Shown: positions 1 to 19,712 of the stretch, in pieces | How positions within the stretch are numbered: the stretch's first letter is position 1 | Layout of the letters: each line of letters begins with the position of its first letter | Source of the DNA: a virus | Virus record (IMG/VR): IMGVR_UViG_3300030099_003338 | Span: 1 to 22,440 of that record | Reading direction: 5' to 3' (one strand) | DNA: 22,440 nt | The notes under the pieces: generated by a model | What the model was told of the DNA's origin: nothing | Databases searched by the model: none | What the model saw: only the letters and a program-made list of their open reading frames with translations | Position numbers and translations under genes: made by a program

Positions 1-1422
1 TGCAATAACAGGTGTAGTTAAAGTTTTATTTGTAAGTGTTTGTGTTCCATCATTTAATGTTACATTTGAACTAAGTCTTGCATCAGCTAGTGTACCTGAT
101 GAAATATCACCAGCATTTGTTGCAGTAGGTGCTACGGCTGCCCATGAAGAGCCACCATATACTTTCATTTCATTTGATGAACTATTAAAATATAATGCAC
201 CTGTAACTAGAGCATCACCATCATTGTCTGTTGATGGGTCAGAACTTTTAGCTCCTAAATATCTATCATCAAAGTTATCAAAACTAGATGCTGCACTTGT
301 TGCACTAGATGCCGCTGCCGTTGCTGAGTTACCAGCATTGGTTTCAGAAGTTGCTGCATTAGTTGCGGAAGTCGCTGCATTAGTAGCACTTGTTGCTGCT
401 TCACTAGCTTTTGTAGTCGCTGTTGATGCTTGTGTGGTAGCTGTAGTTGCACTAGCTGCTGCATTGGTAGCTGAGGTACTAGCCTCACTAGCCTTTGTTG
501 TTGCAGTTGTAGCACTGCCACTAGCACTTGTTGCACTAGAGGCTGCCGCTGTAGCAGAAGACGCCGCATTAGTAGCACTTGTTGCTGCTGCGGTTTCTGA
601 ATTACCAGCGTTTGTAGCACTTGTTGCTGCCGCAGTTGCTGAGTTACCTGCATTTGTTTCACTAGTTGCTGCTGCTGTCGCCGAGTTGCCAGCATTAGTA
701 GCACTTGTTGCAGCGTTTGATGCTGAAGTTGATGCCTCAGATGCTTTAGTGGTTGCTGTTGTTGCTGAGGAAGCTGCCGAAGTTGCACTTGTGCTTGCCT
801 CAGATGCTTTAGTTGTTGCTGTAGTGGCACTAGTAGCTGCGTTGGTTGCACTTGTAGATGCTTCAGATGCTTTGGTTGTTGCTGTTGTAGCTGATGATGC
901 CGCACTAGTTGCACTGGTTGCAGCATTTGTTGCTTGAGTTGTAGCCAGGGCTACTTGTGAAGTCCCTGCTGTATCTGTGTAATTCTTGGTTGCTACATCT
1001 TGTGCACCCGTAGGGTCGGCTACTAATTTAATTCGTTTACTTTGTGCTGTCCATTGGAAATCAGCATTGTCTAATGATATAACATCGCCTGAATCATCAA
1101 TTGCTTCTTGGGCCATAAAAAATGCTTGGTCTGAATCCGTGTCTAAATCATTTTCTGTCAACACAGAGCCAGAAGAATAATCTACTAGTTTAGTTGATTG
1201 ACTTGTTTTACGTCTAATTTCAATAGCCGCTTCATCTGCTGGAGTGTTGCCTCCAGTAAAAGTAAGGGTAGTTCCAGCTCCATTTAGTGTCCAGTGTGTA
1301 GTAATACTTTTTGTTACTCCAGCTACTGTTACAACTAAATCAGCACTACTTCTATATGAAAATGGTATAGAATAAGCATCTGTTGAGCCGTTGCCCGTGT
1401 ATCTTACAAATGAATTTGCCAT
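1..1422 (-). CDS. Tail fibre protein, T7 gp17-like, 3' end off window
   Basis: This frame is open from an ATG at 1422 to the left edge: 474 codons with no stop, so the C-terminal receptor-binding part is missing. Residues 1-150 match the T7 gp17 N-terminal tail-attachment domain in style: MANSFVRYTGNGSTDAYSIPF near the start, then WTLNGAG, IEIRRKTS and LTENDLDTDSDQAFFMAQEA. Residues about 157-380 are an almost pure Ala/Ser/Thr/Asn repeat, probably a trimeric shaft. After it come FDDRYLGAK, GALYFNSSSNEMKVY and a TLTNKTLTTPVI motif, all common in marine phage fibres. The protein would mount on the tail and recognise the host. It lies just downstream of the gp16-like gene, as in T7. The start codon is preceded by the repeated 24-bp element and only a weak AGAAG ribosome site. 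Confidence 0.93.
   Translation of the reverse strand, partial: MANSFVRYTGNGSTDAYSIPFSYRSSADLVVTVAGVTKSITTHWTLNGAGTTLTFTGGNTPADEAAIEIRRKTSQSTKLVDYSSGSVLTENDLDTDSDQAFFMAQEAIDDSGDVISLDNADFQWTAQSKRIKLVADPTGAQDVATKNYTDTAGTSQVALATTQATNAATSATSAASSATTATTKASEASTSATNAATSATTATTKASEASTSATSAASSATTATTKASEASTSASNAATSATNAGNSATAAATSETNAGNSATAAATSATNAGNSETAAATSATNAASSATAAASSATSASGSATTATTKASEASTSATNAAASATTATTQASTATTKASEAATSATNAATSATNAATSETNAGNSATAAASSATSAASSFDNFDDRYLGAKSSDPSTDNDGDALVTGALYFNSSSNEMKVYGGSSWAAVAPTATNAGDISSGTLADARLSSNVTLNDGTQTLTNKTLTTPVIA
283..954 (-). repeat. Ala/Ser/Thr repeat shaft coding region of the tail fibre
   Basis: About 225 codons of degenerate short repeats encode the fibre shaft. Two building blocks alternate: ATTATTKASEASTSAT, seen about five times with variation, and ATNAGNSATAAATS, seen about four times. 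The near-identical DNA copies in tandem would favour slippage and recombination. The long open frames on both strands here are a by-product of the biased composition. Confidence 0.85.
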
Positions 1423-1463: not shown

Positions 1464-4400
1464 TTAATATAATTGATTTTCTCTTTTTATTCTTTCTAAT
1501 TCTCTGTCTATAATGCCTGTTTTTTGTTGGAAAATTCCATATTCTTTTTGCATTTGTATTTCAGCCTGTTTCTCATACACTCTAATAATTGAGTTAATTT
1601 GTTGATTTATAGTTTTACTTTTTATTAAACGACTTCGTTTCTTTTGCAACAAGATTGGATTTTCTTTATAATTTAAAGCACCTCCTGATTTGTTAACCAC
1701 ACTGTTAGGGTCTTTAACTAACTTATCTATTAACTCTGGCAGGGTCACATTTTTATAGCCAAATAAATCTAGTTTTATTGTTCCTTTTAATTCTAATAGT
1801 CTGTCATAAGCAGTTTGCCCTTCTCTCTCTCCTGTTTTCATTTTTAAAGTTTTATAATCTTGTCCTGTAAAACCAAGCTGGCTTTCTCCACTTTGCAGTC
1901 CTCTATACTCAAAGTTAATTTCTTCTAAAAACTTTTGAACTTCAGGATTAGTTTTCTCATGCCAAAGAAATGGACTGGCATCCCATTCTCCACCCATAAT
2001 CCATATACCTTTTGGTCTTACTACTTTCTGTCCAAAGGCATCTCTTTTAGGGGCAAGTTTTTGTTCTACTGGTAAATTCTTTCTAATTTCATCTATAAAA
2101 GTGTAAGCTTCGTGCATGTACTCTGTTTCAGTTCTGTTTTGATGTCGCCACCAACCTGATAAAGGAATAAATTTTGAGGTTAATCTACCCAATACTCTTG
2201 ATGTTTTAGGGTCAAATTCTCCAGAATCTCCTTTGGTTCCTCCTGAAAACAAAGGGATTTGAGTTAACATGTCTAGTGCTCCTTTCATCCAAAACTTAGA
2301 AGATAAATTTGTTTGTACCATTACCATGGCCATAACAGCAGCTTCTTCCATTTTACTCCACCAACTTTCATCAAGGTCTCTTACTGTTGATGTAGCTGTC
2401 TCAGTTATGTGCCACATATCCGCAGCAAATCCTAGAATAAAAGAGAATGGGTCCATTCTGTTAAAAGCAATCGAACCTTCTTTACCATTTATTTCTAAAT
2501 TTATACTGTATGGTGGTCTCTTTTGGTCAATTGCTTGTGAACGTTTTTCTGCGTAAGAGGCAGATTCAACACCACCATTTAGGTAACCTGAAGCTGCTAA
2601 AGACATAGCTCCACCCCACATTAACCATCCCATACGTATTCGTGCTTCAGCTTCAGCTGCTCTTTCAGGACTTAAATATCTACCATCAGGTCCTTTAGCT
2701 AACATGTGTTGCATTTGAAATTGGTATTTACCTAAACCACTTTCTAAAAATGGAAATTTAACACTAGGAGACCTTTGCAAAAACCACCTTATTAAATTTG
2801 TTGGTGTAGCAATAAAGTGAAGACCAAATAAAGGACGTAAGATTGGATATTTTTTAGAGATTTTTATAATCTCACCAGTTATCCCAGCTTCACTTGCACC
2901 AGTCAAGGGATTTATAGATGCTATTTCTTGTGTAAATTTTGTTTCTTGTGAATATATTAAAGGGTCATTTTCTGCAATGTTTGTGCCTGAAGGCATTAAA
3001 GGTTTTTTTCCTCTTCCATAAGGTTGATTAAGTGCATTTTCTGATAAATTTATAGCTGCTTTGTTTTTATATTTACCAATAACTTTATCAGTAAAAGGAA
3101 TTTTGACATCAACATCTTGTTCTGACTCTCTAAAAAATTGTTTAAACAGTTCATTAAATTTATTTTTATAATCATCGCCTTTTAAATTTGGAAATCTTTC
3201 TCTAATTATTCTGTTTACAATTGCTGTAGTACGTGCTCGATAATTTAAAACACCAATAAATTCATCTACCGATGTTAATAATCTTAAAGGTAATTGTTGT
3301 ACAAAAACTCCAGTTTTAGCAGCTGCACGGATTGGTTTAAATGGTCCTATGCTTAAAGCATTATCAACTTTACCTATAAATTTTCCTAATGCACCCTCAT
3401 CTAAAAAGTTGTCAATAATTGAATTTGCATATTCACTCAGTGTGTTGTGACGTTTTAAGTTCTCTAGTTTCATGTGACGAGAATCTAAAAGAGCATCATT
3501 TTGGTGAAAACTTTTTGCCATTGCTAACATACTATGGTGTATGTTTGTAAACAAACCAACAAAAGTATCTGTCGCCTCTCTTGCAGTGGCAAGCGCTTGT
3601 TTTCTTACTTGCTGTGCATTAGTCATATACTGGTCTCTTCTGCCAGCAACTACTAAATCATCTACTACTGAAGAAGCTAAATAATTTTTAGGACGCACAT
3701 ACATGTCCGCAGCTCTTATGTACATTTCCATTGGTTTTGTAACTGCGGTAACAAGTGTTCCTGCTAAATTAATAATTTGTGTTGTAGGCCCTGCCAACAA
3801 GTTTGCATTTATATATCCTGCTAATAAATTCCATTTGTTTGGTGCAGTCATTTCACCCCAATCCTCAATAACATAATTGATGTCGTCTAATTCTTGGAAT
3901 CTATTCCAGAATAATTTCTGGTCTGCAATACTACCATCTTTTAATGGCACTGGTATTTTTCCTTGTTTTGCTAAAGACTCTTCAAACGAAAGACGTGAAT
4001 GTCCTAAAAATTCTTCGACATTTCTACGGGTGTAATCTGTAATTGTAATTCTTTGTGACACTAATATTTGTGCTGTTGATTTTGAAGCATTTTTGTGAGC
4101 ACGAACTTGGTCACTAAAAACTTGATATAATGTATCTAGCTCTTTTAATATATCTCTTTCCTCTGCTGCTGGTAAATTAGACTCTAATCTTCTAGCTAGC
4201 TGAGTCATAGAGTAAAAAGTCTGAGTCATTTGTATGCGGTTGACCAGCATGTAAGTGATGACTTTCTTTTTGTCTCCTGCAAAATCTTCAAGAAATCTAA
4301 CAATATCTTCTGGGTTTTTTCCACCTGCATCTAAATCATGTTTTTTAATAAATGAAATTGCTTCTTCTTTTTCAACATTTAAACTTACGTCTCCTGTTAT

Positions 4401-6845
4401 GACGCCTTCTCTATTAACTTCTTCTAATAATACTTTGGCTCTATCTCCAAGTTTTGTCCTGTCTAAATTTAATAAATTTTCTTTTCCATAAGTACCACTT
4501 CTGGCATCAATTTCATTGTCTAAATTACCAATTATTCTAGCTAAATTTTGAGACCTTCCACGTCCTTCTGCAACTTTTACAGGCCTTCCATTCATGCCAT
4601 CAAACCATATAAGTTGGTCTCCATCAGGGTGTGTTCTAGACCAAACAAATTGTGAAGTTCTGTTTTCTGTTAAATAACCACTAATTTGTGCAATTAATGT
4701 ATCAATATCTTCTGCTAGAAAATTTGATTCTTGTCCCTGAAAACTAATGTATGCTTCATCAGCCTCACGAAACTTAATGTCGTCAGGCAACTCATCTTGC
4801 ATTTTTTGTAAAGCATCTAACATGCTTCGTAACCTAGTTGGAGTGTATTGTGAAAAGTCACCTTGAGAAATGAGGTCCTCATATGCTTTGCTAAATTCTT
4901 CTTCAGTAAATTCAACAGGTCTTTTTGCAGCTTCTTTCTTTTGACGATTTAAACTTGCTTGTTGTGCTCGCTCTACAAGTTCTCTTGCAGACAATTCATT
5001 ACGAGCTTTGGGTCCAAAAACATCAGGGTCTTGCTTTACTTGTTTATTAATTATTTTGACTAAATTAGGGTCATTTCTACGAAGTCCTGAGTATCCCATA
5101 GAAGTTAAGTAATCATAAATCACCCAAATGTTTTCATGGTCTGTGTTCTTGTAGGGATTAATACGTCCTTCAGCTGCTTCTGTTGCAAGTTGTTCTTCTG
5201 TTAGTTCTGGACGCCACCACCTACTTTTCTTTCCTTTGTTAGTGGCTCTGCCTGTGTATTTTAAATCTAAAATGTCTTTATAGATTCTTCTAAATTCTTT
5301 GTTAAAGGTAGCTAAATCAGCTTTGTATAAAGGTGATTTTGGGTTGTTAAAATGGTCATTAAAGAAACGTGCTTCATCTTCTAGTAACCCAGCTGAATCA
5401 GTTCTGTTTTCAAAATATGTTTTAATATTGTTATATTCTTGTTCTGTAAGAGACTTCCAAGATTTTCTAATAACTCCTTTTTTAGTTATTAAATTGTCAC
5501 TTGGTATAAATTTTTCAAACCATTTTACTTGTTTGTAAGCTGCTGCTGTATCAGGCACTCTTTCCCACAATTTATTTTGTATTGCCCAACGTTCTGCATC
5601 TTCACGTAAATTAGGATTGTTGGCTTCATCATAAATTAAATCTTCATCAACTTCAAATTCTACTGGTTTTCTGTTAGAAGTGTCCATGTTTTGTGCCCAC
5701 ATGTCAGGGTCACTAGTAAGCCAAAATTCTCCTATGCCGCCATTTCCTTGGTGGGTTTTATTTCTTCCACCACCAAATGTACCATCAATTACAGGTTCTT
5801 CCACAGGATTATCTTTGTCTGTCCAATGCCAGTAAGAAACTTTTCTTCCTTCTACAACTTGTGAAGAATCAAAATATTTTAAATTAGATTTACCTAAAGC
5901 TTTAAACAACATTTTTCCATCATGGTTAATACCATTGTCAATAAACTCTTTATGTTTTTTTAAAACTTCATTTTTAAACTGACGTCCTTTGTATCTAAAA
6001 GCTCCATAGCTCATTCCAGTTCCAAGAGTACTTCCTAAACCAAAACCAAGAAGAATGCTCATTCCTAGCTGTTCTTTGTCAAATGATTTTTGTAAATCTG
6101 CATCTATACGAATTCCCTGTTCCATATAATTTTGAAACCCAGTTATTCCTGCTTCATATGCTCCTTCAGTTAAAGCTGGTTTACCAATAGTTTTAAATAC
6201 AGGAATTTCTTTAACAGCTTGTTCAAAAGTTTCTTGAGTAATGTTTTTTGCTAATTTGTTTTGCAACAATTTTTGTAATCCTCTAGTTGCTGCTGTAGAA
6301 GCCGCTTTACCTGCTCCTGGAATAGGTATAAGATTTACAGGGTCTACGATGGTAGAATACAAAGCATCACCTAACCAACTTAAAGTTGACCTAGGGTCTG
6401 CTGTATCTGCCCCACTAAAATTTAAAAATCTGTTAGGCATTAAATCATAAATTTCTTGTATATGACCCCATTGTTGTTTTCTAATATAATTTTCACTATC
6501 ATTTGCTTTAGACATTAACGACCAATCTTGGCCAATCCCAACTGTGTTGTTAGTTCTAAACATCCTATCTTCAAACATTAAAGATAAAACATCAACATCA
6601 TCCATGTTTTGTATTCTTTCTATTTCATCATAATCTGGAGCTTGAGGAGTGCTTTGTTGAACTAAAATATCTTTTGCATCAAATGTTTGACCTGCTCTCC
6701 AACTGTAAAAGTCACGTACCATATCAATAAATTCTCGTTCTTTAATACGTTCTTTAGCTTTTTCAACTAATAGTTCATGACGTTCTTCATCTGTATTAGC
6801 GGCAACTTCATTCCAATTAGAAATTCCATAGTTATACTTTGCCAT
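1464..6845 (-). CDS. Large internal virion (ejection) protein, T7 gp16-like
   Basis: At 1793 aa this is the largest gene here, longer than T7 gp16 (about 1318 aa). Its place between gp15 and the tail fibre, and its architecture, point to the core protein that is ejected into the cell and helps DNA cross the envelope. Visible features are a hydrophobic Gly-rich stretch at about 260-283, a helical, membrane-friendly C-terminal half, and FIATPTN around T1347-N1350, a pattern often seen in such podophage ejection proteins. I see no lytic transglycosylase motif in the first 200 residues, where T7 gp16 carries one. Residues about 335-600 show YWHWT, GIGEFWLTSDPDMWA and MGYSGLR in order, which recalls ADP-ribosyltransferase-like domains of phage polyvalent proteins. 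The start overlaps the gp15 stop as TAATG, with AGGAG about 13 nt upstream. Confidence 0.85.
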   Translation of the reverse strand: MAKYNYGISNWNEVAANTDEERHELLVEKAKERIKEREFIDMVRDFYSWRAGQTFDAKDILVQQSTPQAPDYDEIERIQNMDDVDVLSLMFEDRMFRTNNTVGIGQDWSLMSKANDSENYIRKQQWGHIQEIYDLMPNRFLNFSGADTADPRSTLSWLGDALYSTIVDPVNLIPIPGAGKAASTAATRGLQKLLQNKLAKNITQETFEQAVKEIPVFKTIGKPALTEGAYEAGITGFQNYMEQGIRIDADLQKSFDKEQLGMSILLGFGLGSTLGTGMSYGAFRYKGRQFKNEVLKKHKEFIDNGINHDGKMLFKALGKSNLKYFDSSQVVEGRKVSYWHWTDKDNPVEEPVIDGTFGGGRNKTHQGNGGIGEFWLTSDPDMWAQNMDTSNRKPVEFEVDEDLIYDEANNPNLREDAERWAIQNKLWERVPDTAAAYKQVKWFEKFIPSDNLITKKGVIRKSWKSLTEQEYNNIKTYFENRTDSAGLLEDEARFFNDHFNNPKSPLYKADLATFNKEFRRIYKDILDLKYTGRATNKGKKSRWWRPELTEEQLATEAAEGRINPYKNTDHENIWVIYDYLTSMGYSGLRRNDPNLVKIINKQVKQDPDVFGPKARNELSARELVERAQQASLNRQKKEAAKRPVEFTEEEFSKAYEDLISQGDFSQYTPTRLRSMLDALQKMQDELPDDIKFREADEAYISFQGQESNFLAEDIDTLIAQISGYLTENRTSQFVWSRTHPDGDQLIWFDGMNGRPVKVAEGRGRSQNLARIIGNLDNEIDARSGTYGKENLLNLDRTKLGDRAKVLLEEVNREGVITGDVSLNVEKEEAISFIKKHDLDAGGKNPEDIVRFLEDFAGDKKKVITYMLVNRIQMTQTFYSMTQLARRLESNLPAAEERDILKELDTLYQVFSDQVRAHKNASKSTAQILVSQRITITDYTRRNVEEFLGHSRLSFEESLAKQGKIPVPLKDGSIADQKLFWNRFQELDDINYVIEDWGEMTAPNKWNLLAGYINANLLAGPTTQIINLAGTLVTAVTKPMEMYIRAADMYVRPKNYLASSVVDDLVVAGRRDQYMTNAQQVRKQALATAREATDTFVGLFTNIHHSMLAMAKSFHQNDALLDSRHMKLENLKRHNTLSEYANSIIDNFLDEGALGKFIGKVDNALSIGPFKPIRAAAKTGVFVQQLPLRLLTSVDEFIGVLNYRARTTAIVNRIIRERFPNLKGDDYKNKFNELFKQFFRESEQDVDVKIPFTDKVIGKYKNKAAINLSENALNQPYGRGKKPLMPSGTNIAENDPLIYSQETKFTQEIASINPLTGASEAGITGEIIKISKKYPILRPLFGLHFIATPTNLIRWFLQRSPSVKFPFLESGLGKYQFQMQHMLAKGPDGRYLSPERAAEAEARIRMGWLMWGGAMSLAASGYLNGGVESASYAEKRSQAIDQKRPPYSINLEINGKEGSIAFNRMDPFSFILGFAADMWHITETATSTVRDLDESWWSKMEEAAVMAMVMVQTNLSSKFWMKGALDMLTQIPLFSGGTKGDSGEFDPKTSRVLGRLTSKFIPLSGWWRHQNRTETEYMHEAYTFIDEIRKNLPVEQKLAPKRDAFGQKVVRPKGIWIMGGEWDASPFLWHEKTNPEVQKFLEEINFEYRGLQSGESQLGFTGQDYKTLKMKTGEREGQTAYDRLLELKGTIKLDLFGYKNVTLPELIDKLVKDPNSVVNKSGGALNYKENPILLQKKRSRLIKSKTINQQINSIIRVYEKQAEIQMQKEYGIFQQKTGIIDRELERIKRENQLY

Positions 6846-8911
6846 TACGGTCTTAAATCTCCTACAATAGCTAGAATAATTTCTCTTTTAGACACACCCA
6901 TCGCATTAGTAATTGCATCCCATTGAGAAGGATTTATACCATCTTCAAGAAATGTTTGCAAAGTGGTAGGGTTTAAATTTAATTCTTGAGCAACAGTACC
7001 TTGCCTAAATGCTTCTGACAAACCAGGAGCAACTTCTTGTATAAAGTCATTTATGTTTTGTCTTCTCTGCGCCTCAAACTCTTTTTTTGTATCTGAATCA
7101 AATATTTCTTTGTCTGTAACAAGTCCTGGACCAGCATCTCTTTCTTTGTCATACTGTCTAAACCTGTCTTTATCAAAGTTAGGAGATGACACAGCCTCAC
7201 TTAGATTTCCTAAAATATTATCAACCATTGTATCAACAGCTAATATTCTATTAGTTTGAGTTTGTTGTATTTTTCGTAAATTTTCTCTACTAGCATCCGC
7301 TACATTTATGTCTGCTACTGAAATTTCAGTTAATGACTTAATTGATTCAGCTAATTTTCTTGGGTTAGTGCCTGGTATAGCGTTTCGTAAAATCTCTAAA
7401 TTTTCATCAGAAAGACTCATGTCATCAGCTTTACCTAAATTAAATGCTTCTTCCCTTATTTCTCTCATAAATTTTATTTTCTCTCTAATAGGCCAACTTT
7501 TCCCTTCTTTTTCCCTTCTATCTAATTCTTCATAATAAGAATTTTTAAAGTAATCCATAGCTCGAATTAATTTTGGAGCATCACTGCCAAGTGCCGCAAA
7601 AGGAGAGCTTCCTAATTGGTTTTTTAAAGTGCTTTCTAGTTCTTTGATTTCTTCTTGATAAGTTACATCTGATAAATGCGCACCACCATATTTACTATAA
7701 TTATTGTAGAAAGTTAAAACATCATTTAAATGTAAACTAATACTTAAATTTTCTGCATCAAATCTATCAGTTATTTGACCAGCACTAGTAATGGTGCCAT
7801 CCATAATGTCAGCTTTTATTTTTTCAATAGCTGTTAAATTTTCAATTTTACTATCATTTTCCGTCATCCTATCCCATTTAGCAACTTCTAAAGGACTAAC
7901 AAGTTGAAGACGGGTTCTAAGTTCAGCCATTTTTACAGGGTCATCTTTAAACTCAGCATACTGACTGTAAATATCTAAAACTTCTAATTGTATCTTTTCT
8001 TTTTTTTGCCTTAAGTCTTTACTTTGTAAACTGTCTTGTTTAGCCAACAATTTACCGTACAATGCCATTACTGTTTCATCTGCTGTGTCGACTAGAGAAC
8101 CCAAAGCTCCTCCACTTTTTCTGTCTCCTCTATCTGTTGTTAAAATTTGTATAGCTCTGTCAAGTTCCTCCATAGTTGTAGCTGTGTTAAGAATGTTAGT
8201 TGCAACTTGTATTGCTAAAACTTTTTTCTCATCATTGTCAAACAAATAATTAGTTTTCCCATTTACGTTAGGCAGGCGCAATCCTAAATTTTCTGTTTCT
8301 TGCCAAAAATTTTTCCCTGCGTCTTTTTTGTCACTGTTCATAAGAATATTGCTTAAATGTGCAGACCCTGAATTAAATTTAGTAAGCTCTGATTTTTGCA
8401 TACGTGCTTCAAAATCTTTAGATTCAAGAGCATAAAATTCTTTTTGCCAATATGAATTGTAACCATCAATAAAATCATCATTTTTATCTTGAAAACTAGG
8501 AACATAGTTTTTTGCAAAATCTTGAAATGTCTCGTTTTCCATATCATATTTATCATAATTTTCTTTTAATTTTCTAATGCTGTTAGATGCTGTAAGACGC
8601 CCTTTGTATTGAGAAACAACTTTATCACGGAAAAACCCAGATAATTCTTTATCTTCTCCTGTGTTTAAATATGCAAGAAGTTTGTTTTCATCGCCACCAA
8701 ATTCAGCTAATTTAGTATTTATTTTTCTTTCGGTATCTAGTTCAACATCTTCCTTAAGTCTGTTTGCAGCTGATTGTGCCGCAGTTCCAAAAGCATTTAT
8801 TGCTCTAGCAATACGTTCTGCATCTTGGCCTAGATTTCCTAAATTAGGAGCACCTTTGTCATAAGCATCTAAGTACCTTTGATTAACTTGTTTTCTATAT
8901 CCTGTTGCCAT
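6845..8911 (-). CDS. Internal virion protein, T7 gp15-like
   Basis: This 688-aa protein is close in length to T7 gp15 (747 aa) and lies between gp14-like and gp16-like genes, the invariant T7 order. It is highly charged and largely helical by appearance (for example many K/E/D runs in residues 90-140 and 280-340), with no signal peptide or membrane segment. In T7 the homologue builds the internal core with gp14 and gp16 and forms the ejection tube across the periplasm. No catalytic motif was recognised; the call rests mainly on context, size and composition. The start uses TAATG with the gp14 stop, and AGGAGG lies about 12 nt upstream. Confidence 0.8.
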   Translation of the reverse strand: MATGYRKQVNQRYLDAYDKGAPNLGNLGQDAERIARAINAFGTAAQSAANRLKEDVELDTERKINTKLAEFGGDENKLLAYLNTGEDKELSGFFRDKVVSQYKGRLTASNSIRKLKENYDKYDMENETFQDFAKNYVPSFQDKNDDFIDGYNSYWQKEFYALESKDFEARMQKSELTKFNSGSAHLSNILMNSDKKDAGKNFWQETENLGLRLPNVNGKTNYLFDNDEKKVLAIQVATNILNTATTMEELDRAIQILTTDRGDRKSGGALGSLVDTADETVMALYGKLLAKQDSLQSKDLRQKKEKIQLEVLDIYSQYAEFKDDPVKMAELRTRLQLVSPLEVAKWDRMTENDSKIENLTAIEKIKADIMDGTITSAGQITDRFDAENLSISLHLNDVLTFYNNYSKYGGAHLSDVTYQEEIKELESTLKNQLGSSPFAALGSDAPKLIRAMDYFKNSYYEELDRREKEGKSWPIREKIKFMREIREEAFNLGKADDMSLSDENLEILRNAIPGTNPRKLAESIKSLTEISVADINVADASRENLRKIQQTQTNRILAVDTMVDNILGNLSEAVSSPNFDKDRFRQYDKERDAGPGLVTDKEIFDSDTKKEFEAQRRQNINDFIQEVAPGLSEAFRQGTVAQELNLNPTTLQTFLEDGINPSQWDAITNAMGVSKREIILAIVGDLRP

Positions 8912-9426
8912 TATTTTTGTTGGCCTCCTGCTCCACTATCTCTGTTCGAATACGCTTCAGCAGCTGCTCCAGCAATTTTTAATCCTGTTCCAAATAAACT
9001 TGGACGTTCTACTAATGGCAGTGCTAAATAATCTTGTTGTAGTTCAGCATATGCAGCATCTTGCTGTTGTGAAAGAGTTATAATTTCATTAGCAGCTTCA
9101 GTTTGTATCCCAGCTAATTGTAATTGAGTTTCTCCTCCAATTCTACGGAAGATAGCATTAGGATTTCCAAAACCAGCATTTGCAGCTTCTGCATTTTGTC
9201 TTCTAGCTTCTCGTTCAAGTTCCAGTGTAGCTCTTTGCTCTTCAGCTTCTACTTTAGATTTATCCCTGTCAATGGCATTTAAGTTTGCTAAATAAGCAGC
9301 GTCTGCATTGGCCTGTCTTTGGTCATTTGCTGCTTCTTGTGCATCAGCTCTAGCGTTTGCTGCGTTGTGTTCGTAAATATAACCAACTGCTTTAATAGTT
9401 GGTCCAATAAATGCTACATCGCACAT
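8911..9426 (-). CDS. Internal virion protein, T7 gp14-like
   Basis: The 171-aa protein is near the size of T7 gp14 (196 aa) and is in the same position. The middle (about 22-85) is Ala/Glu/Arg/Gln-rich and probably a long helix or coiled coil; the C-terminus has a short hydrophobic Gly/Ala segment (FGTGLKIAGAAAEAY). In T7 gp14 forms a pore in the outer membrane during ejection. The start ATG lies 13 nt inside the end of the upstream gp13-like gene, with a good GGAGG 10 nt before it, so the two are translationally coupled. Confidence 0.8.
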   Translation of the reverse strand: MCDVAFIGPTIKAVGYIYEHNAANARADAQEAANDQRQANADAAYLANLNAIDRDKSKVEAEEQRATLELEREARRQNAEAANAGFGNPNAIFRRIGGETQLQLAGIQTEAANEIITLSQQQDAAYAELQQDYLALPLVERPSLFGTGLKIAGAAAEAYSNRDSGAGGQQK

Positions 9427-9905
9427 TCTTTAATTTCCTCCATAGTTTTAAGCACATATATAAATGGCGTTTTACCTGCTCCAAATTTAGGTATTTCTAA
9501 TTCTTGTACAAATCCTAAATACTCTAACCAGCGTAAAGCCACTGTATTTTCTTTATCTACATAATTAAATAAATATTTATATCCTTGTCCCATTTCATTT
9601 ACCCAGTGTGGGCACTCTCTTAAAAACTGCATAGTGTACTCAAACAATTCTTCACTACACAACATCCAAGCAACTCCATAACCAGGTTCTTGAGTTCGTG
9701 TAGAACCAAACATTCCTATAACTTCATGATTTTGACTCATAATACTGTAAATTTTAGAGTGTTCTAAAGTAAAAGGAATAATCAAAGCTTCCAAAGGAGA
9801 TGTGTCATCGGAACGTTTAATTTCTAACACATCTGCTGGACGCATTTTTGGTGCTAATTCAATAGCATCATCAAGTTTGGCTTTTCTTACATAACCTTTT
9901 TTCAT
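9414..9905 (-). CDS. T7 gp13-like protein with GNAT fold (DUF2833-type)
   Basis: The 163-aa product lies between tail tube B and gp14, like T7 gp13 (138 aa), which is a minor virion or assembly protein. The C-terminal part carries a GNAT motif-B pattern: N120, A123, Y129 and GF at 131-132 (NTVALRWLEYLGF). The acetyl-CoA pyrophosphate loop (R/Q-x-x-G-x-G/A) is not evident, so acetyltransferase activity is doubtful. Pfam groups such proteins as DUF2833, by my recollection. The start overlaps the gp12 stop as TAATG, and the ribosome site is weak, which suggests coupling to gp12 translation. The end overlaps the gp14 start by 13 nt. Confidence 0.75.
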   Translation of the reverse strand: MKKGYVRKAKLDDAIELAPKMRPADVLEIKRSDDTSPLEALIIPFTLEHSKIYSIMSQNHEVIGMFGSTRTQEPGYGVAWMLCSEELFEYTMQFLRECPHWVNEMGQGYKYLFNYVDKENTVALRWLEYLGFVQELEIPKFGAGKTPFIYVLKTMEEIKECAM

Positions 9906-12406
9906 TACACTCTTGTTGACCTTGCATGATAGAAACCTTCTAATTCTGCACTAGAAACATTAAAAGGTAAATGCGAACTGCTAACTAATTTTAAAACAAA
10001 ATCTGTATTTCTACATTGTATTGGCACACGGATTACTCCATTGCCTATAGATGGGTTATCGACACTACCTACAAATCCAACAACATAAGGTGTTATAAAC
10101 GATTTAAAAGTATCTCGGTTCAAAGGTGTTATTTGAAACTCTAAAAACCCAGTATCTTCATAATTAAAACTTACAGTACGAACTTGAAAACGTCCTGAAG
10201 TAACTGCGATTACTCCTCTGTCAGTTTTATCTCTAATGTATGGTTTAGACATTTCATAGGTACTAGTGTAAGGAACTCCAATAATTAAACTAGTGTGATT
10301 CCCTTCAATTGTATAAGTAGAACCAGTTGTGTTAGTTGCTTCATAATCAGCTCCCGTAGTAGTTTTTACAGCTAACAATCCTGCTTTAGCTCCGTATGGA
10401 GATGTAAATGTAGTTTTGTCTGTAGCTGCATCATAGGTTCCTGTTACACTTTTTTTCAAATCTAAAGCAATATTAAAACTTAAACCAGTGTCAGGGGCAT
10501 TTTGTAAATCTAATTTAAAAAGTTTTGTTGTTGTTCCTTCTGCGGCAAAAACATAAACTACACTTTCGATTGTCATGGCACCAATAATTTTAACACCATT
10601 AAAAGTCCATTTAGACCACCCACTTTGTACACGAGTATCTCCAGTAAAAAAGTATTTGTATACAAACATTGTATCTGCATTTGTTGCTGTGACATTACTG
10701 CCTGTTGCAAAAGGAGCAACTTGGGCATCAGCATCATCTGAACATAAAACAATAAGTACATCTTCTGTTGTGTTGCTTATTAATTGGTAAGCTTTGTCAG
10801 GAATTAAAGAAGAAACGTGTGCTGTTATATCTATTCCATCATTTGTTAATGTGTCATCACTTGTAAAATATTCACGTATTAAAGTTTTGTCATTTCTTTT
10901 TTGTGCAAAATATGCAAACTTTCCTGCTGACACAGGAGCTACATCGGAATTGTGTTCAAAAGAAGATACTTGATTTAATATTGCAGTTGTAGGTGTTATA
11001 GTGTCTCCTGCCGAATCTAATTTGTATTGAGTTGTATCAGAAAATAACAACAAAGTTTCATTAAAACCAACAGAATTTTTTAATGTATTAACTTCAACCC
11101 CAGATGCTGCAATATCAATAGGGTCAGTGTCTAAAGAGTCAGTGACTGTTGAAGAAAAGAAATTAAAAAACTCTGCATTGCCAGAAAGAATTAAATTTTC
11201 TCCTGCTAAAATACCCAAACGATTTTTATAAAAAGTTAAATTTTGAATTGTGACACCCACAAAAGATGGGTTAGGGTTGCTAGTTGCATCTCCTGCTGTT
11301 CTGTCATTATATGTTTGTTTGCGAAATGTAAAAGTTCCATCTCTATTATTTATAAGTGCATGGGGCATTGTAGCATCATCTAAACCTACAGAAACTCCAG
11401 GTCCTATAGTTTCTTGCCAGACTCCATCGCCAGTGTATTTAACATAATAGTCTGTTAATATTTCACCTTCATCACCTGTTATTACAACAATCATGTCAAC
11501 TTTAGCATAGAAAGGAAGGTTAGAAAATTTTTGTATTTCATCACGGATAACATACATTGCTGTATTGCCTTGTCCATCAGAAGTAGTTACAGTGTAGTTA
11601 GAATCGCCGTCAGTTGGTTTACCATAAATTGTAGAATTAAATTGTTCAAAAGTAAAATAAGAAGTAATTCCTGTGTAATTACTCAATCCTTGTGTTGTTG
11701 ACAAAGTTGCCCCAGTGTCATCACGCACAGTTTTAAAATTAATTCCATTTGCAGTGGCATCGTAAAAAGTGCTTGATGTTCCCTTTAACAAAATATCAGC
11801 AATTTTATTAGTGTCTGAAAAAGGGGCATCAGTTGCTGCTACTGACCCTGTTGGCATTTGAAAAATTACACTTATGCCATGTCCTAAATCTGTCTGCATG
11901 TCAGGGTGTGTTAAAGAAACTTTGTATTCTCTACCAAAACCACTATTTTTTACATAAATTAAAAACTCTTCTACTTTTGCAGTAGTGGTTGTTGAATCAG
12001 CTGCAGGTGTTATTGATTTGTTAGCAATAAAAGTAAAGTCAGCAATATTAACAAGGTTAAAATCATTTTTTGGATTTGTACTATTTAAATAAGTATTACC
12101 ATCAGGAAAACTAACAGTTTTTTCTACACCATCTAAGCCATACACTTTAACTCCATTGTCATAAAAAGCTACAACAAACCTGTTTGACTCATCAGTTTGT
12201 ATGCTCCAAAATTTAGTGGTGTTTGGAAAAACATTAGTGCCATCCAAAGTAGCGATAAACTCTAATGGTGCACGTTTACGTAACCCATCTACAATGCTAC
12301 TGTCAATATTTTCTTGGTCTTCAGCTTGTGAAGGTAAACGTTGTGTTGAGCTTTGTTGGCTGATGCCATTTATTAGACTAGGTATTTCTTGACTAACAAC
12401 TGCCAT
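9905..12406 (-). CDS. Tail tubular protein B (nozzle), T7 gp12-like
   Basis: This 833-aa protein is near T7 gp12 (794 aa) and follows tail tube A. The N-terminus (SQEIPSLINGISQQ, then RLPSQAEDQENID) is the hallmark opening of the gp12 nozzle family, and the rest is beta-rich with many short Gly/Thr/Asp turns. Another typical block is FYKNRLGILAGENLILS near residue 390. Six copies form the tail nozzle that closes the DNA channel. The start is TAATG with the gp11 stop, preceded by AGAAGGAGATAT, a very strong ribosome site nearly equal to that of T7 gene 10. Confidence 0.95.
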   Translation of the reverse strand: MAVVSQEIPSLINGISQQSSTQRLPSQAEDQENIDSSIVDGLRKRAPLEFIATLDGTNVFPNTTKFWSIQTDESNRFVVAFYDNGVKVYGLDGVEKTVSFPDGNTYLNSTNPKNDFNLVNIADFTFIANKSITPAADSTTTTAKVEEFLIYVKNSGFGREYKVSLTHPDMQTDLGHGISVIFQMPTGSVAATDAPFSDTNKIADILLKGTSSTFYDATANGINFKTVRDDTGATLSTTQGLSNYTGITSYFTFEQFNSTIYGKPTDGDSNYTVTTSDGQGNTAMYVIRDEIQKFSNLPFYAKVDMIVVITGDEGEILTDYYVKYTGDGVWQETIGPGVSVGLDDATMPHALINNRDGTFTFRKQTYNDRTAGDATSNPNPSFVGVTIQNLTFYKNRLGILAGENLILSGNAEFFNFFSSTVTDSLDTDPIDIAASGVEVNTLKNSVGFNETLLLFSDTTQYKLDSAGDTITPTTAILNQVSSFEHNSDVAPVSAGKFAYFAQKRNDKTLIREYFTSDDTLTNDGIDITAHVSSLIPDKAYQLISNTTEDVLIVLCSDDADAQVAPFATGSNVTATNADTMFVYKYFFTGDTRVQSGWSKWTFNGVKIIGAMTIESVVYVFAAEGTTTKLFKLDLQNAPDTGLSFNIALDLKKSVTGTYDAATDKTTFTSPYGAKAGLLAVKTTTGADYEATNTTGSTYTIEGNHTSLIIGVPYTSTYEMSKPYIRDKTDRGVIAVTSGRFQVRTVSFNYEDTGFLEFQITPLNRDTFKSFITPYVVGFVGSVDNPSIGNGVIRVPIQCRNTDFVLKLVSSSHLPFNVSSAELEGFYHARSTRV

Positions 12407-17007: not shown

Positions 17008-18903
17008 TTATAGCCCCACCAATTCACAACTGTTTCCTGTGCATGCAAACTCTTGACTGCCTGTTGTGTTGTCCTCTTTTTCATCTAAGTCGCTAAAATC
17101 TATATCACTTGGCATTGTGCGGGCAGCTTCATTATATTGTTGTTCAGTAATTTGTTGGTAAGGAGCTTGTTTATACACATGGTCAAGGGCAGGTAAAAAA
17201 CTAATGCCTGCTACTTCTTCAAAATTACTATACACCCATGCACCTACATCCATCCATTCCTCTTCTTTTACACTAACAGTGACAGATGGTTTATGCTCAC
17301 ACCAATGTCTTTGATACATTAACCAGGTTTCTAATTGTTGAATAGCTGATAAAGATGTTGTGGTAAGACAGCCCTCTGGAGATTTTTGAGGGAAAGAAAA
17401 TACCATAACATCATTAGGTTTCATCACATCAGGTTCATGTGGAACACCTTTGTCAATTAACAACTGAGTTAATGGGTCTTTTATATCCATACGAACTGTA
17501 CGAATATAATACTGACTGTACCTACTGTGGATGCCAGAAGCTGAATCAACTAACTGACTAACTGTGCCTGATGGTTTAACACAAGTTATTGCTGTGGACT
17601 GATTTATACCAAGTTTTGAGGAGAGCAATTGATTACACTCCACAGCTGTGTCTCTTAATGTTCTTAGAAAATTAGGAGTCGGAGATATAGTCAGCCTGTT
17701 GTCCATAATGCCCGTGAGAGAAACACCAAGGAGGCGTTCAGCTTCTGTGTTTTCTTTCCACACGTTTCTTATGTATTGAAAATTGGTAAGTGTTGATTGG
17801 AAAGTTCCAAGAATTGTTGCTAGTCTAACTTTTTCTTGCAAGCTTTCTTTGGTGTCTTCTGCTCTAACCACCACCTCAGTTAGGTTACAAAATTGGTAAG
17901 GTCTTAAAATAATTTCAGAACAAGGATTGGTGCCAAACTCATGTTCAACATCTCTTCTTCCGCTTTCGGCAACTTTGTTTTTAGCTGCTTGACGATTAAA
18001 GATACCTCGCTCACCACTCTTGCTTTCATATAATGCTTTCCACTCTGACATAAATAAACCCATGTCAGGAGTACGGGTGTAAACAGCGCTGTTGTTTGCC
18101 AATGCTCTTTGTCCATGCTCTATCCACCACTGTCCACTCTTTGCTTTACGAATGTTGTCATCTTGTATGTTACTCAAAGAAATAAGTGCGGAGCGTCTCA
18201 CGCCACCGACTACCACTACTTCGCCTACTTTGCAGACTAAGTCGTGGCACTCTATGGCTTCTAATTGGCGACCAGCGGCCTTCTGAAATAATTCAATAGC
18301 GAAATCAAACAAGTCAACAAGTGGTTGTGGGCCTGATGCCCTGCCACCAAATGTTTTTAACCTTGCTCCAGCTGGTCTAACCTGAGTGATATCTATTTTA
18401 GGAATTTGACCTGAATATAACATTGCAAGTAATTCTCTAAAGGCGCTCGCCCACCCAGATTTACTATCTGCGACAACAATAACAGTTTCGCTTTTACTAA
18501 ATTTTTCGGCAACAACAGGCAGCTTCTCAATGTTGTTGTACTCTACACTAAAGCCAACACCTGTGCCACATAAAAGTATGTACATAACTTCATCAAAACT
18601 TCTAACATCATCAATAGGAATGTAACTACAGTTGTAACCAGCTGTGTGGTCACGTTCTAATGCAACTCCAGCTGTCATCAGTGCTCGCATGCTAGGCATA
18701 ACTTTTAAATTAATTACTGCTGTTTCTAGTTCTTGCCTTAAAAGCCCTATGTTGTAATTAAAATTAGTTTCTAAATGTTTTTCCATAAAGTCAAAGTATC
18801 TTCTTACTGTTTCTGGCCATGTTTCTCTACGTCCTATAGCCTCATCATATCTGGCATAGCGAGATGTGTGTATGTATTGCTGGTATATGCTTGGTAATAT
18901 CAT
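17008..18903 (-). CDS. nrdJ: Class II (B12-dependent) ribonucleoside-triphosphate reductase
   Basis: The 631-aa enzyme reduces ribonucleotides to deoxyribonucleotides for phage DNA synthesis. Its motifs match the monomeric adenosylcobalamin type of Lactobacillus: YNCSYIPI (active-site Cys92), LLCGTGVGFSVE, VGGVRRSALISL, NPCSEIILRPYQFCNL (Cys328, Glu330, Cys339), KPSGTVSQLVDSASGIH, and a C-terminal CTGNSC pair (Cys621, Cys626) that would re-reduce the active site. All key residues are present. I chose the ATG at 18903, which forms TAATG with the exonuclease stop and has GAAGGAG 10 nt upstream; the ATG nine codons earlier would place that ribosome site inside the gene. No small subunit or activase is needed. 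Such genes are common at this site in marine T7-like phages. Confidence 0.93.
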   Translation of the reverse strand: MILPSIYQQYIHTSRYARYDEAIGRRETWPETVRRYFDFMEKHLETNFNYNIGLLRQELETAVINLKVMPSMRALMTAGVALERDHTAGYNCSYIPIDDVRSFDEVMYILLCGTGVGFSVEYNNIEKLPVVAEKFSKSETVIVVADSKSGWASAFRELLAMLYSGQIPKIDITQVRPAGARLKTFGGRASGPQPLVDLFDFAIELFQKAAGRQLEAIECHDLVCKVGEVVVVGGVRRSALISLSNIQDDNIRKAKSGQWWIEHGQRALANNSAVYTRTPDMGLFMSEWKALYESKSGERGIFNRQAAKNKVAESGRRDVEHEFGTNPCSEIILRPYQFCNLTEVVVRAEDTKESLQEKVRLATILGTFQSTLTNFQYIRNVWKENTEAERLLGVSLTGIMDNRLTISPTPNFLRTLRDTAVECNQLLSSKLGINQSTAITCVKPSGTVSQLVDSASGIHSRYSQYYIRTVRMDIKDPLTQLLIDKGVPHEPDVMKPNDVMVFSFPQKSPEGCLTTTSLSAIQQLETWLMYQRHWCEHKPSVTVSVKEEEWMDVGAWVYSNFEEVAGISFLPALDHVYKQAPYQQITEQQYNEAARTMPSDIDFSDLDEKEDNTTGSQEFACTGNSCELVGL

Positions 18904-19712
18904 TATATATATGCTCCTTCGGACCAACACTCACCGTTGTACAAATTGTAATTTAACAAGTGATTTTTGCCCCATAGTTTTATTTGTTTTGTTTTTTTAT
19001 TATAATCTTCCGCTCTTAGTATCCTAGCCACCCTAGCTTGTGTAATAAATTCACACACACTAAGATTAGCTTTTTCATATTGTTCACAGACTGCATCTAA
19101 TAATACAGGAAAAGATTCTCCATGTAAATCACGCAGTATTTTTTCGGCTGTTTTTTCACCGATGCCAGGAACTCCTGTGTATCCATCTACTGCATCTCCT
19201 GTTAAAGTTTGTTTCATAAAAGCATAGTCAGCAGAGGCACGTGAAACAACAGATACATCTTTACCATCTACAGATAACAAACCAGGAATCTGTTTTAAAT
19301 CTTTATCGATAGATACAATAATCTTTTCTTCTTTGGAATTGGTTGTTGACAGGATGCCACAAACATCATCAGCTTCTAAATGTTCCCACACTAAACCATT
19401 ATGGTTTTGTAACACGTAACTACGCAGTGCTGTAAGAAGTATGGGTTTTCGTTTTTCAATTCTGTTTGCCTTATAAGTTGGTAAAATTTTTTTTCTAAAA
19501 TTAGAGTGACTCGACAGAGCCATTGTATAAAAATCGGCCTGCAAATCATCTAACAATTTTTGTATCGCTTCATCAACTTCTGTAGTAGTAATATTAAAAT
19601 CTGCATGTAATGTCCACAAGCCATCTCCCCAGTCTGTAGGTTGTTCTGCTTGTGTAGCAATTTTGTACAATAGAATGTCACCATCTATTAATAATCTTCG
19701 TTTAGTCATCAT
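18903..19712 (-). CDS. 5'-3' exonuclease, T7 gp6-like (FEN/PIN domain)
   Basis: This 269-aa protein matches the FEN1/5'-exonuclease family and T7 gp6 (about 300 aa), which removes RNA primers and degrades host DNA. Metal-binding acids are visible in order: D10 and D12 (LLIDGD), E113/D115/D116 (LEADD), D136 and D138 (SIDKD), D173 and D176 (TGDAVD). The basic RKKILPTYKANR motif (73-84) and the helix-3-turn-helix GVPGIGEKTAEKIL (180-193) contact DNA. It overlaps the nuclease gene before it by 11 nt and the reductase gene after it as TAATG. The start may be the first or second of two adjacent ATG; AAGGA lies 6-9 nt upstream. Confidence 0.93.
   Translation of the reverse strand: MMTKRRLLIDGDILLYKIATQAEQPTDWGDGLWTLHADFNITTTEVDEAIQKLLDDLQADFYTMALSSHSNFRKKILPTYKANRIEKRKPILLTALRSYVLQNHNGLVWEHLEADDVCGILSTTNSKEEKIIVSIDKDLKQIPGLLSVDGKDVSVVSRASADYAFMKQTLTGDAVDGYTGVPGIGEKTAEKILRDLHGESFPVLLDAVCEQYEKANLSVCEFITQARVARILRAEDYNKKTKQIKLWGKNHLLNYNLYNGECWSEGAYI

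Follow-up and report, generated by a model that had tools for sequence, protein, structure and literature searches.

Phage T7 delivers gp14, gp15 and gp16 into the host envelope ahead of its DNA (PMC8954989), and ADP-ribosyltransferases (ARTs) are the commonest macromolecule-modifying domains of polyvalent phage proteins (PMC5512222, PMC9503650). The 22,440-base virus record analysed here, which in its entirety is called the window throughout, raises the question of whether the two have come together, that is, whether a gp16-like ejection protein that is longer than its relatives contains an ART-like domain, as the original prediction proposed from three short strings of residues. Our analyses point to a diverged ART-like domain in the linker of the gp16-type protein, which would be delivered by the virion and serve as either an enzyme or a non-catalytic module, and to this reading we give a probability of roughly 0.7.

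The T7-like late genes of the window form a block on the minus strand, which includes three genes for internal virion proteins:

1464..6845, minus strand: gp16-like ejection protein, a homologue of internal virion protein D; an ORF of 1793 aa with homology to pelagiphages outside the insert described below
6845..8911, minus strand: internal virion protein at the gp15 position, placed between the gp14-like and gp16-like genes
8911..9426, minus strand: gp14-like internal virion protein (Pfam T7_gp14, E 7.9e-14)

The gp14 and gp15 positions are followed by the gp16-like gene and then by the tail fibre position, and pelagiphages are arranged alike; the gp15-position ORF is without a Pfam match. 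By tail tubular protein B, the nearest annotated phages are pelagiphages of the HTVC019P type (~57-63% identical), and the phage represented here is a pelagiphage-like autographivirus. Homology to internal virion protein D extends to 17 Pelagibacter phage records (best E 2e-79), with ~30% identity to the gp16-like protein along its whole length except the insert. Pfam matches to an N-terminal transglycosylase domain were found neither in the window protein nor in four other gp16-type proteins scanned. The marine T7-like phage probably injects its gp16-like protein ahead of its own DNA. As a separate observation, tail tubular protein B (9905-12406) is ~60% identical to its pelagiphage counterparts and the gp16-like protein (1464-6845) only ~30%; because of this disparity, the ejection protein would appear either to evolve much faster or to have been exchanged.

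Two features of the gp16-like protein bear on where additional material has entered it:

4356..5903, minus strand: lineage-specific insert of ~515 aa (residues ~315-830), a gap in all relatives in alignment A1
6012..6068, minus strand: the sole strongly hydrophobic 19-residue segment (residues 260-278; Kyte-Doolittle scan), just N-terminal of the insert

The extra length that had been noted in the protein is real. Internal virion protein D of HTVC105P, HTVC168P, Eistla and HTVC019P measures 1241-1283 aa against 1793 aa in the window, and nearly the whole difference is this one insert, where the four aligned relatives have a short variable linker instead. Hence, pelagiphage internal virion protein D/gp16 (HTVC019P, HTVC105P and others) resembles the window protein in its homologous N- and C-terminal parts and in gene order but lacks the ~515-aa insert. 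No other ORF of 111 loci compared matched the insert, and in these loci the open frames of gp16-type proteins other than that of the window do not exceed 1346 codons. It was likewise observed in none of 80 gp16 relatives from an IMG/VR scan based on alignment A1, and IMG/VR scans that sought either the insert's own relatives or close gp16 proteins returned none that carries it. In the records of 26 gp16 relatives, PF18760, the Pfam family for this type of ART, gave no match. In G+C and GC3 the insert is the same as its flanks. Its second part (4356-4925, gp16 residues ~641-830) has no recognised domain and is absent from relatives; it may be a further module.

The three strings behind the original prediction (YWHWT, GIGEFWLTSDPDMWA and IYDYLTSMGYSGLR) do occur in the order proposed, within window positions 5046-5843 and in the 1793-aa ORF, GIGEFWLTSDPDMWA at residues 370-384 and IYDYLTSMGYSGLR at residues 576-589. 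The first two contain ART motif positions and are followed by a predicted strand:

5820..5834, minus strand: YWHWT (residues 338-342), with H340 at the position of the ART strand-1 histidine and W341 for the G of HGT, by alignment column
5706..5732, minus strand: GEFWLTSDP (residues 372-380), the ART strand-2 motif with W375 at the Y/F/W position, by IMG/VR motif scan and alignment
5628..5666, minus strand: PVEFEVDEDLIYD (residues 394-406), predicted strand 3, by hhalign register and as a strand in both AlphaFold models

A regular expression for the three-part motif, HxT/S-(15..60)-Gx[FYLIVH][FYW]xT-(20..260)-G[YF][DSN][GSA], matched 16 of 1171 unique phage and prophage ORFs, of which 15 are ARTs by profile and the sixteenth is the window protein. 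It matched shuffled sequences in 9 of 20000 trials with the whole protein and 2 of 20000 with the insert; the expression was devised after the window had been seen, with S permitted in GY[DSN]G, and the profile scan of all window proteins reported below is the cleaner test. The first two parts, H-x-T/S and then, after 15-60 residues, G-x-[FYLIVH]-aromatic-[FLIVMT]-T, were found in none of 1100 other non-ART ORFs (439,098 aa). In IMG/VR, the pattern GxFW[LF]TxDP, which was taken from the window sequence and requires no other ART feature, occurred in 23 stretches, five of them in ORFs at least 500 codons long; of these five, four are ART-PolyVal domains above the Pfam cut-off and represent two families, L202 and L207 being identical in sequence. 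These large phage proteins have a strand-2 motif nearly identical to that of the window (GVFWLTSDP in L207 and L202, GAFWFTDDP in L191 and L194), but unlike it they keep HGT, score above the Pfam cut-off and show no sign of being of gp16 type. L207 (record G020) is a phage ORF of 3855 codons with several ART-PolyVal copies, that with GVFWLTSDP included. L194 has a second stretch of IYHST type downstream of the first ART (262-852) in the same ORF, which suggests tandem ART-like domains.

The window proteins were also compared with an ART-PolyVal profile. The profile comprised ~70 phage and prophage domains, gathered in phage records and by scanning genomes and IMG/VR, was seeded with the vRNAP of Roseovarius Plymouth podovirus 1, whose domain was confirmed with Pfam, and was also cut into N- and C-terminal halves for separate hhalign tests. 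The halves and the segment between them map as follows:

5601..5873, minus strand: N-terminal half of the ART-like domain (residues 325-415), hhalign N-half score 20.5
5121..5600, minus strand: helical sub-insert between the ART halves (residues 416-575, 160 residues), with helices predicted at low to middling confidence
5034..5120, minus strand: C-terminal half of the ART-like domain (residues 576-604), with GYSG and the predicted strand LVKII (595-599), hhalign C-half score 17.1

The register of the alignment was as expected, placing HxT, G-E-F-W-L-T-S-D-P and P-V-E-F-E-V of the window against their counterparts in the profile. With the first version of the profile, 4 of 200 shuffles scored as high as the window segment; with the enlarged profile and residues 325-625, the score was reached by 2 of 400 shuffles and by none of 500 real non-ART segments, so that shuffles are the control against which the score stands out less. 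The N-half score was reached by none of 1400 real non-ART phage segments, among which the maximum was 17.5, and the C-half score by two of 1400. When the half-profiles were slid over all proteins of the window, we observed the top N-half segment beginning at gp16 residue 316 and the top C-half segment at residue 545; the window-wide best match of each half is thus in the insert, N before C. Because both half-profiles pick out the insert in a scan of every protein, the objection that the region was chosen by hand is answered in large part. Insertions after strand 3 also occur in some true ART-PolyVal domains, for example L134.

Other sequence searches did not recover the domain. HMMER with our own ART profile was not significant (1.4 bits, with 225 of 2000 shuffles as high), PF18760 alone found nothing in the window and recovered the positive controls, and its curated cut-off of 31.2 bits was not reached by the window protein. 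Pfam (to E<=10), PHROGs and PDB sequences, searched with both the whole protein and the region, gave no ART match. Formally, and on these sequence criteria, the window domain is not a member of PF18760, by virtue of both the curated cut-off and the GYDG residue. Listings of SWIRM and CodY in library searches of the protein or region were set aside as sub-threshold noise, and tblastn of the region and its sub-pieces against phages gave chance matches only.

The single-sequence AlphaFold model (pLDDT 42) was too poor for use, although strands appear nonetheless at YWHWT and PVEFEVD. With alignment A3 as input (46 ART-PolyVal rows), a run that presupposes homology, is partly circular and had no control, the core blocks reached a mean pLDDT of 79-89, with an overall pLDDT of 60 and a pTM of 0.41. 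In that model, residues 335-343, 373-377 and 392-400 form strands, GYSG is preceded by a helix, and two more strands span 587-589 and 595-599; the last strand (LVKII) was modelled elsewhere than the input alignment had set it, a point in favour of the ART reading, and its register is uncertain. Foldseek on both models returned nothing significant, and PARP16 and 'PolyVal ADP-Ribosyltransferase', which it listed weakly, were given no weight. The models are consistent with an ART fold and are not proof of it. From the profile and motif evidence we infer that an ART-like fold in the insert is likely.

As to the active site, the ARTs of polyvalent proteins are described as Tox-ART-HYD2-related, their strands 1, 2 and 5 contributing H, Y and D respectively, and with the vRNAP of Roseovarius Plymouth podovirus 1 as prototype (Iyer et al. 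2017, PMC5512222); the catalytic Glu that had been expected is wrong for a clade described as H-Y-D (PMC5512222). H340, which had been singled out, falls in an alignment column that is occupied in 45 ART-PolyVal rows and is H in 44 of them. At the W375 column (46 rows) the family has 24 Y, 11 F and 8 W, while L376 stands where 42 family rows have F, and T342, G372, T377 and D379 are the family consensus or a common residue in the alignment. Two near-invariant residues are altered: the G of HGT (43 of 45 rows) is W341, and the D of GYDG (41 of 46 rows) is S586, giving GYSG. Across the family set the acid before the last strand varies (E 16, Q 10 of 59), and nothing in the window protein, whose last-strand register is uncertain, clearly corresponds to it. 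Because HGT and GYDG have each lost a residue that is among the most conserved of the family, the domain may be inactive, and we regard ADP-ribosyltransferase activity as doubtful. The ART-like domain originally predicted is partly supported, by profile similarity with real-segment controls and by the IMG/VR motif scan, and not by Pfam membership, single-sequence structure, Foldseek or an intact active site.

These results have to be weighed against other explanations of the insert. It could be unrelated to ARTs, resembling them by chance or convergence, and only lengthen the ejection protein in a structural or DNA-binding role; such an origin would account for the lack of a curated family match and of significance in both HMMER and Foldseek, and it gains from the motif having been striking and picked out of a 22-kb window. 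However, the two halves of the profile independently select the region among all window proteins, and the motif is specific across 1171 ORFs, and we consider an unrelated insert unlikely. The insert could also be the remnant of an ART fold, an ART-PolyVal homologue that is catalytically dead and kept as a structural spacer or as a nucleotide- or protein-binding module of the ejectosome. The tryptophan and serine at the near-invariant positions of HGT and GYDG speak for a dead enzyme, as does a predicted last strand with no clear acid, but retention of the strand-1 His, the strand-2 aromatic and Thr, and the D that follows them is not favoured under free drift, and variation of the strand-5 acid within the family set itself implies that other active-site solutions are possible. 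A remnant is a sub-case of the ART-like reading, so that its confidence overlaps with that of our best explanation, and it seems to us a real possibility that falls somewhat short of an even chance.

According to the preferred reading, a diverged domain of ART-PolyVal/Tox-ART-HYD2 type (~325-415 and ~576-604), split by the helical sub-insert, would have been added to the linker that joins the N- and C-terminal parts of the gp16-type protein, packaged in the virion within the ejectosome and delivered together with the DNA. The N-terminal part of T7 gp16 is periplasmic, and models place gp16-C, which follows the membrane regions, in the cytoplasm (PMC8954989). Cytoplasmic delivery, catalysis and a host target are inferred here; were the topology that of the T7 gp16 model, the domain would face the host cytoplasm just past the membrane segment, because the only hydrophobic segment (260-278) shortly precedes the insert. 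It might there bind NAD+ and transfer ADP-ribose to a host macromolecule ahead of phage transcription, in the manner of T4 Alt, an ART packaged in the virion that acts on the host's RNA polymerase upon entry (PMC5512222); alternatively, given W341 and S586, it may be a non-catalytic ART-fold module. The boldest form of the proposal, that an active ART with a rewired active site (HWT, GYSG) sits in the cytoplasmic part of a T7-type ejectosome, so that the DNA channel itself modifies host proteins before phage expression, is in our view improbable. The site of action of an ART-like domain might instead be the periplasm or the capsid interior, with a role in, for instance, ejection or assembly and not on host targets in the cytoplasm; T7 gp16 is partly periplasmic (PMC8954989), and the topology of the window protein is only predicted. 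Against this, the insert is C-terminal of the only hydrophobic segment, and the T7 model puts the post-membrane part in the cytoplasm (PMC8954989). We hold action in the periplasm or capsid to be very unlikely. NAD+ is, moreover, mainly cytoplasmic, which argues in the same direction.

Among the closest known systems is the PF18760 prototype, the vRNAP of Roseovarius Plymouth podovirus 1 (CBX87992.1). It shares the order in which H-x-T and G-x-(F/Y/W)-(F/L)-T-x-(D/N/S) are followed by a strand 3 rich in V and I, then by GY-x-G and one more strand, and, like the window protein, it is a marine podovirus virion protein of very large size in which the domain is embedded. The window domain differs from it in falling below any curated cut-off, in having W341 for G and S586 for D, and in its 160-residue helical sub-insert; its carrier is a T7 gp16-type ejection protein, whereas that of the prototype is an N4-type vRNAP. 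T4 Alt provides the model of a virion-packaged ART injected with the DNA (PMC5512222), but it is a separate protein of the R-S-E clade, with no sequence link to the window domain shown. Virion-borne ARTs are already known, as T4 Alt, MuF fusions and N4-type vRNAPs; no report of an ART in a T7-type ejection protein was found in the literature searched, and placement of an ART-like domain there appears to be new in those sources. If the reading is true, the linker of the ejectosome is able to carry effectors, and pelagiphage-type phages may be acting on the host just as they enter it. Furthermore, PF18760-like domains with drifted key residues can escape curated models.

Two other parts of the window merit brief description. 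The ORF at the tail fibre position (1-1422, minus strand) has long Ala/Ser/Thr-rich repeats (SATTATTKASEAS-like units), and the long ORFs on the strand opposite are probably spurious. At 17008-18930 on the minus strand, an ORF that by eye resembles ribonucleotide reductase adjoins the T7-like replication genes.
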